Of a stretch of 64,000 nt of DNA, positions 35,333-37,114 are shown piece after piece. Position 1 is the stretch's first letter. Each line of letters opens with the position of its first letter. The notes beneath the pieces are model-generated. The model worked only from the letters and a program-made list of their open reading frames with translations. It searched no databases and was not told the origin of the DNA. The stretch spans positions 1-64,000 of the forward strand of contig JAKOWL010000209.1 of NCBI GenBank assembly GCA_029781535.1, in the 5' to 3' direction. The position numbers and the translations under genes were made by a program. This DNA comes from Pseudomonadota bacterium. GTDB lineage: Bacteria; Pseudomonadota; Gammaproteobacteria; Burkholderiales; Methylophilaceae.

Positions 35333-36580
35333 TTATGCTCCGTATACAGGGAATTTTGAGGTCAGCGCATGCACCTTCGCTTTTGTGGCAGCTATCACAT
35401 CAGCGCTTTCCGGATCATCCAGCACATCGGCAATCAAATGCGCCACCTGCTCAGCTTCTGCTTCCTTGAAACCGCGCGTGGTGATGGCTGGCGAGCCGAT
35501 ACGGATGCCGGAAGTCACGAACGGGCTTTCCGGGTCGTTCGGGATCGCGTTCTTGTTCACAGTGATATGCGCCTGGCCCAAATAAGCATCAGCTGCCTTA
35601 CCTGTCAGTTTCTTCGGACGCAAGTCTACCAGGAACACATGGGATTCCGTACGGCCTGAGATGATGCGCAAGCCGCGCGATGCAAGCGTTCTGGCCATGG
35701 CATCTGCATTCTTCAGGACTTGCTGCTGGTAAGCCTTGAACTCAGGTTGTGCCGCTTCCAGGAAGGCGGTCGCCTTACCGGCGATGACATGCATCAACGG
35801 GCCGCCTTGCAGGCTCGGGAACACATTCGAATTGAGCATTTTCTCGTATTCGGCCTTAGCCAGGATAATGCCACCACGTGGGCCGCGAAGTGTCTTGTGA
35901 GTAGTCGATGTGACAAAATCCGCATGCGGTACTGGGTTAGGATATACGCCTGCAGCGATCAAGCCGGAGTAATGTGCCATGTCCACCATGAAATACGCAC
36001 CAACTTTTTTGGCGATCTCTGCCATGCGCGCCCAGTCGAATCGCAATGCATAGGCAGATGCACCGCCAATCAACAGTTTCGGTTTGCACTCCAGTGCAAT
36101 GCGCTCCATCTCGTCGTAATCGATCTCTTCCTTATCGTTCAAGCCATAAGGCACGATATTGAACAGCTTGCCGGACAGGTTGGCGGGAGAACCGTGTGTC
36201 AAATGGCCGCCGTGACCCAAGTTCATACCCATCACGGTATCACCCGGTTTAAGAATAGAGAAATATACCGCCTGATTGGCCTGTGAGCCGGAATGCGGCT
36301 GTACATTCGCATACTCAGCCCCAAACAGAGATTTCAGGCGGTCGATTGCCAGTTGCTCAACCTGATCCACGAACTCACAACCACCGTAGAACCGTTTGCC
36401 TGGATAACCTTCCGCGTATTTGTTAGTCAGTTGCGAACCCTGCGCCTCCATCACAGCGGGGCTGGTGTAGTTTTCGGAAGCGATAAGTTCGATATGATGC
36501 TCCTGACGCACCACTTCGCTATCAATCATTTGTGCCAATGCTGGGTCGGCCAAGTGTAAATTTTTTGACTTGCTGAACAT
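35333..36580 (-). CDS. glyA: serine hydroxymethyltransferase
   Basis: full-length [18 protein letters not shown]. Confidence 0.97.
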
Positions 36581-36639
36581 GTTGGTATGTTTCCAGAATG
36601 ATATTTATTCAAAGTGGCATTTTAGCATGCCGTTACTGA

Positions 36640-36684
36640 CACCGTCACGGTGAATACATCATGGCCAACGCACCATCACGGTGC
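36640..36684 (+). promoter_or_regulatory. tandem NtrC-type enhancer sites
   Basis: CACCGTCACGGTG (36640-36652) and GCACCATCACGGTGC (36670-36684), centres 31 bp apart. Confidence 0.65.
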
Positions 36685-36769
36685 CTTAAAAGACCCATTT
36701 TGGTTATAAGCTCACAACCAATTTATCCATAAATAAATATAACTGATTGTTTTATATCGGATTTAATCA

Positions 36770-36785
36770 TGGCACGCACATTGCT
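36770..36785 (+). promoter_or_regulatory. sigma-54 (-24/-12) promoter
   Basis: TGGCACG-CACA-TTGCT, GG and GC elements at canonical spacing. Confidence 0.8.
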
Positions 36786-36795
36786 TATATAAAAT

Positions 36796-36853
36796 CGTAA
36801 TGCCAGATTCTCCAAAGTCTCCCCCTCTATGCCCGGCTCCGCCGGGCTTTTTT
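36796..36853 (+). ncRNA. candidate sigma-54-dependent small RNA ending in an intrinsic terminator
   Basis: predicted +1 about 12 nt after GC of the -12 element; C/U-rich body; GCCCGGC-TCC-GCCGGGC-TTTTTT end. Confidence 0.6.
36831..36853 (+). terminator. intrinsic terminator
   Basis: GCCCGGCTCCGCCGGGCTTTTTT. Confidence 0.9.
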
Positions 36854-36919
36854 ATCACATAGCTGCCACAGCATGAACGGTAGCGTTATAATGGGTCATT
36901 AAACTTTGGTAATACCGAA

Positions 36920-37114
36920 ATGAAGTGGACAGACACACAAAGAATCGCTGAAGCACTCTACGATACACATCCTGACGTGGATCCGGTTACCGTTCGATTC
37001 ACCGACCTGATGGAATGGGTGTTGGCGTTGGAAGGCTTTGACGACAACCCTGCACATTGCGGGGAAAAGATCCTGGAGGCCATCCAGCAAGCTTGGATTG
37101 ATGAAGCCGCCTGA
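36920..37114 (+). CDS. iscX: Fe-S cluster assembly protein IscX
   Basis: [40 protein letters not shown]. Confidence 0.93.

Follow-up and report, generated by a model that had tools for sequence, protein, structure and literature searches.

The window analysed here, a 64-kb stretch of DNA, contains a compact regulatory interval between the divergent genes glyA and iscX (table 1). That these two genes flank the gap had been proposed from the letters of the DNA alone, and the matches to PF00464 and PF04384 bear this out. The interval holds two NtrC-type dyads, a sigma-54 promoter, a predicted small RNA (sRNA) with its own terminator and, beyond the terminator, a promoter for iscX whose TATAAT is found again in relatives.

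Table 1. Features of the glyA–iscX region in the 64-kb window.
Feature	Position	Strand	Remarks
glyA, serine hydroxymethyltransferase	35333–36580	−	PF00464; divergent neighbour, synteny anchor
Distal NtrC-type dyad, ACACCGTCACGGTGA	36639–36653		8 of 10 consensus positions
Proximal NtrC-type dyad, GCACCATCACGGTGC	36670–36684		perfect GCACC-N5-GGTGC, centre at about −119
Sigma-54 −24/−12 promoter, TGGCACGCACATTGCT	36770–36785	+	match to TGGCACGN4TTGCW
Predicted sRNA	36796–36853	+	about 57 nt
Hairpin 1, AGAUU-CUCCAA-AGUCU	36805–36820	+	CUCCAA exposed by the loop
C/U-rich single-stranded linker	36821–36830	+	poorly conserved
Intrinsic terminator hairpin with U-run	36831–36853	+	stem 36831–36847, T-run to 36853
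Sigma-70-like iscX promoter	36863–36892	+	3′ of the terminator
iscX	36920–37114	+	PF04384; not always the neighbour in relatives

The sequence-only reading had recognised the sigma-54 element, and we find it where it was described. In the 64 kb no sequence other than TGGCACGCACATTGCT comes within one mismatch of TGGCACGN4TTGCW, while at two mismatches or fewer 23 sites occur (17.6 expected). The GG-N10-GC arrangement that characterizes the −24/−12 region of sigma-54-dependent promoters is present. The start of the RNA (36796) was placed 12 nt past the −12 element. The centres of the two dyads, 31 bp apart, lie 119 and 150 bp upstream of this predicted start, so that their positions and spacing agree with those first claimed; the two have fared differently in other respects. 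The proximal dyad, about 85 bp from the −24/−12 site, is the sole perfect GCACC-N5-GGTGC in a scan of the window and is kept in relatives. The distal dyad is imperfect and has no counterpart in the relatives' promoters. The terminator, too, was correctly located by the reading. A search of the window with Rfam at the gathering score matches tRNA alone and nothing for the sRNA; at that threshold, the earlier remark that no described RNA family is present holds.

Conservation and structure of the RNA

Is this arrangement maintained in other Methylophilaceae? A blastn search of the glyA–iscX gap against 60 relatives returned only the window itself, because the element is too short. Orthologous gaps were therefore read by anchoring on glyA and iscX rather than by DNA search. 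Their conservation had been set beforehand as a refutation test, and a conserved promoter–sRNA–terminator module is what they contain. In this module the sigma-54 promoter is followed, after about 12 nt, by an RNA of 57–70 nt carrying (U)AUCUCCAAAA(U) and by the terminator; most Methylophilus genomes have it upstream of glyA, as do members of several other genera of the family. GGCA and TGC of the promoter and UCUCC of the RNA (36809–36813, within the hairpin 1 region) do not vary among the 21 aligned copies, the relatives compared not being statistically independent.

R1, a covariance model built on the promoter together with the RNA, matches 96 of 187 Methylophilaceae genomes, part of these through the glgA-linked paralog described below, and 21 of the 22 genomes of the window's genus. 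Only 4 of 300 genomes sampled from the order are matched, two of them Methylophilaceae. The streamlined genera g14 and g16 have no match to R1 or to R2, the model of the paralog, though most of their members possess RpoN. In some genera the glyA-linked copy is gone or much changed (L039, L040, L044, L045, L049, L051); one of these loci, L040, retains a degenerate promoter (TTGGCATGTCGATTGCC).

Could the element belong to one of its neighbours, to iscX as a regulatory leader or to glyA? Its position between the two genes invites the idea, which we nevertheless regard as highly improbable. The RNA ends in a strong terminator, iscX has a separate sigma-70-like promoter, the direction of the element is away from glyA, and only the + strand carries the U-run. 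Moreover, among 38 copies with known positions, 34 lie less than 400 nt from glyA and diverge from it, the exceptions being about 1.2 kb (G101) or 17–19 kb (G071, G127, G132) away. In many congeners other genes intervene between the RNA and iscX; the RNA thus travels with glyA, not with iscX.

The sequence-only reading took the body of the RNA to be largely unstructured. This we must correct: copies folded individually form two hairpins, a double-hairpin architecture of about 58 nt, the first being AGAUU-CUCCAA-AGUCU in the window. The corresponding stem is AGCG...CGCU in most Methylophilus, AGAGC...GCUCU in another genus and AGCUU...AAGCU in the second, glgA-linked paralog. Nor is CUCCCCCUCU, which the reading had proposed to pair with Shine–Dalgarno sequences, the conserved segment; that segment is UCUCC(AA). 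All but one of 56 distinct 5′ segments place CUCC inside a hairpin loop (55, as against 13.2 expected when the remaining bases are shuffled), and 32 different stem sequences carry it. The stem pairs of the terminator likewise covary. The CUCC counts are strong evidence for RNA-level selection to keep this motif in a loop. A conserved, accessible anti-Shine–Dalgarno (anti-SD) segment in a supported structure is what marks a trans-acting anti-SD sRNA, and both are found here. The proposal that the RNA pairs with SD sequences accordingly gains an invariant loop motif and a covarying stem, but specific targets are not demonstrated.

The same pattern bears on a protein-coding interpretation. In the window a frame of 20 codons begins with an ATG at 36800, which might suggest a small protein gene. 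Yet the ATG is missing in most relatives, the reading frame extends across the terminator, and what is conserved is a hairpin with compensatory changes; we give this interpretation almost no credence.

The glyA-linked RNA is not the only one of its kind. A second class, AAGCUUCUCCAAAGCU...CUUCUCCUCCC-terminator, is preceded by a sigma-54 promoter and flanked by glgA and a convergent oligoribonuclease-like gene (orn). Its model, R2, matches 127 of the 187 Methylophilaceae genomes, including the window's own (G000:C167:5866-5962, locus L187); further loci are L117–L136. Several other genera have a third class, longer but also sigma-54-driven, which occupies the interval from amtB to gshA and ends in UCUCCUCCUC-terminator. 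Four loci of the amtB–gshA class (L198, L199, L200 and L201, around position 1500) show the ending UCUCCUCC-terminator. At weak scores, a sigma-54-like promoter followed by CUCC(UCC) and a terminator is also seen in other Burkholderiales families (L193–L196).

Control of the sigma-54 promoters

If sigma-54 polymerase transcribes the RNA, which activator might serve it? We scanned 46 glyA-linked promoters for NtrC-type dyads. At least 9 of 10 consensus positions are matched in 18 of them, compared with 0.2 expected from dinucleotide shuffles, and all 18 dyads begin within one narrow band, 98–111 nt upstream of the −24 GG. The 46 leave out six more glyA-linked promoters (L050, L052, L140, L141, L142 and L144), of which L140 has a dyad matching at 9 of 10 positions. 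In the same scan the promoters of the glgA-linked paralogs, which serve as an internal negative control, contain no NtrC dyad. The glnK–amtB operon provided an outside control: all 8 congener loci have a sigma-54 promoter before the operon, and in 3 of the 8 it is preceded, about 110 nt away, by a similar dyad. A conserved GCAC-N7-GTGC dyad 100–150 bp upstream, as expected of an NtrC enhancer, is thus found mainly in Methylophilus. Methylotenera-type copies have no NtrC dyad upstream of the −24 element; in its place are TGGTTG...AACCA dyads (L104, L138, L139, L145, L146, L148), and for this reason the activator may differ between genera. Of the NtrC control first proposed, then, the part concerning Methylophilus is upheld by the positional conservation of the dyad, whereas the Methylotenera-type genera do not conform.

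RpoN is encoded in the window's own genome (G000:C43) and in 176 of 187 Methylophilaceae genomes; with so few members lacking it, its co-occurrence with the RNA is uninformative. Hfq is encoded in a congener. A search through 2.0 of the 2.6 Mb of one congener did not find the gene for NtrC; the same 2.0 Mb contain one bEBP-like open reading frame, with a score below the ntrC cut-off.

These observations bring forward the principal competitor of NtrC control, namely that the sRNA is sigma-54-dependent but answers to another enhancer-binding protein and another signal, carbon state for example, with NtrC acting in some Methylophilus species or in none. The replacement dyads of the Methylotenera type, the dyad-free glgA-linked paralog and the failure to locate NtrC in the part of the congener covered all speak for it. 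On the other hand, GCACC-N5-GGTGC is positionally conserved in Methylophilus, some glnK–amtB promoters have a similar dyad, and amtB directly precedes one paralog. On balance we judge this competitor rather doubtful, and continue to favour NtrC for Methylophilus.

Candidate targets and proposed mechanism

Which messages might the loop recognise? Its complement is UUGGAGA. The pattern TTTTGGAGA-N3-9-ATG occurs 2–16 times per Methylophilus genome, as against 0–3 times for the reversed pattern, an excess that owes something to ordinary SD sequences. Orthologous genes share TTTTGGAGA with ATG in as many as 14 of the 22 congeners. At the start sites of one Methylophilus genome UUGGAGA precedes 12 genes, AAGGAGA 28 and CAGGAGA 19; since GGAGA sites more often take one of the latter two forms, the loop would be selective.

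Two genes stand out by recurrence. A porin-like outer-membrane protein has an identical TTTTGGAGA site in the 14 genomes listed, and hexulose-6-phosphate synthase (TIGR03128) has the site in 13 genomes listed. Nearly every Methylophilus copy has the latter site, but few copies from other genera do, giving 18 of 80 across the family. The porin-like protein (L234 and its orthologs in Methylophilus, about 418 aa, with a nearly invariant leader) matches no family in Pfam or NCBIfam. Thiol peroxidase (tpx) also recurs: TTTTGGAGA is kept in 4 of 5 species while its flanks vary, four of the five having been picked by that pattern. HtpG and PqqC were added by inspection. When the 1808 genes of one congener were ranked by duplex energy, GuaB (IMP dehydrogenase) came first with a perfect 13-bp match and hexulose-phosphate synthase sixth; the porin-like protein would be fifth. 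However, 2 of 55 flank permutations of the loop equalled or beat the best match, and strong duplexes were not enriched genome-wide in this congener over flank-permuted loops. The ranking was therefore dropped as proof of targets. The porin-like protein, hexulose-phosphate synthase, Tpx and GuaB are to be read as candidates, still unproven.

Taken together, the observations support the interpretation with which the analysis began. We think it probable that the locus encodes a free-standing sRNA, controlled by sigma-54 and NtrC, that responds to nitrogen limitation and represses mRNAs with UUGGAGA ribosome-binding sites. An activated enhancer-binding protein, in Methylophilus most likely NtrC, would bind GCACC-N5-GGTGC about 119 bp upstream, and under nitrogen limitation sigma-54 RNA polymerase would initiate near 36796. 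The transcript of about 57 nt would fold into a small hairpin holding UCUCCAA open in its loop, followed by the terminator hairpin. Pairing of the loop with UUGGAGA-type ribosome-binding sites would then block translation initiation on a selected set of mRNAs. The family comprises the glyA-linked RNA, a glgA/orn-linked copy in the same genome and an amtB-linked type in other genera.

More speculatively, the glyA-, glgA- and amtB-linked sRNAs could form one SD-masking double-hairpin system through which one-carbon assimilation, storage and envelope proteins are coupled to nitrogen supply, each RNA answering to a different enhancer-binding protein; the system might be a parallel or distant sister, under sigma-54, of the Burkholderiales double-hairpin RNAs. 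We put this forward tentatively, as a possibility somewhat short of an even case. Methylophilaceae include industrial and ecologically abundant methanol users, and the sigma-54 sRNA set could offer a direct, testable route from nitrogen supply to the translation of one-carbon and envelope genes. With its paralogs, different enhancers and 32 stems around one loop, it is also a natural series for studying the selectivity of anti-SD RNAs.

Relation to known small RNAs

How does the RNA compare with those already described? CrcZ is likewise a sigma-54-dependent sRNA with a dedicated enhancer-binding protein, CbrB, but is a 407-nt Hfq decoy. The Qrr RNAs are sigma-54-dependent with the dedicated enhancer-binding protein LuxO. 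Both CrcZ and Qrr differ from the window RNA in architecture and lineage. NrsZ of Pseudomonas aeruginosa is induced on nitrogen limitation by NtrB/C and RpoN (PMC9308961); it is, however, 226 nt long and processed, adjoins ntrC and activates rhlA, and the Rfam search found no sequence relation between it and the window RNA. Nearer in character is MmgR of Sinorhizobium meliloti (RF00519), a short nitrogen-controlled sRNA that is induced on nitrogen depletion, activated by NtrC and acts as a post-transcriptional repressor (PMC9170634, PMC9049629). The window RNA does not match its model, and the glgA-linked paralog does so weakly (21–24 bits against a cut-off of 41).

The architecture is best paralleled by RF02278, the double-hairpin 'toxic' sRNAs of Burkholderiales (ncS03, ncS05, ncS27, ncS62). 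These RNAs, too, measure about 58 nt, place an anti-SD loop hairpin before a terminator hairpin, and occur as several paralogs per genome in Betaproteobacteria. They differ in displaying CUCCUCC where the window RNA has CUCCAA, and the latter scores 19 bits against a cut-off of 50. Among the genomes sampled from the order, those of Methylophilaceae, the window's own included, gave no RF02278 match, and no sigma-54 promoter was seen by eye before 30 inspected Burkholderiales members.

In E. coli the short anti-SD RNAs of RF02278 act as growth inhibitors, and the host of ncS27 grows more slowly when that RNA is overexpressed (PMC5688073). Might our RNA, similarly, be a general decoy of ribosomes or Hfq, or a brake on translation, without specificity for particular mRNAs? 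The duplex ranking, no better than that of permuted loops, would agree with such a role. But CCUCC is what one would expect in a blocker of SD sequences at large, and the near-invariant AA after UCUCC favours pairing with UUGGAGA, which is rarer at starts than AAGGAGA or CAGGAGA. We consider a general decoy unlikely, and retain selective repression as the preferred function. No report of sRNAs or regulatory RNAs of Methylophilaceae was found in the open-licence papers searched, and a description elsewhere is possible; the conserved set of very short sigma-54 RNAs in this family is apparently undescribed so far. As judged from sequence comparison, no Rfam family fits the window RNA, and its closest counterparts are RF02278 and MmgR.
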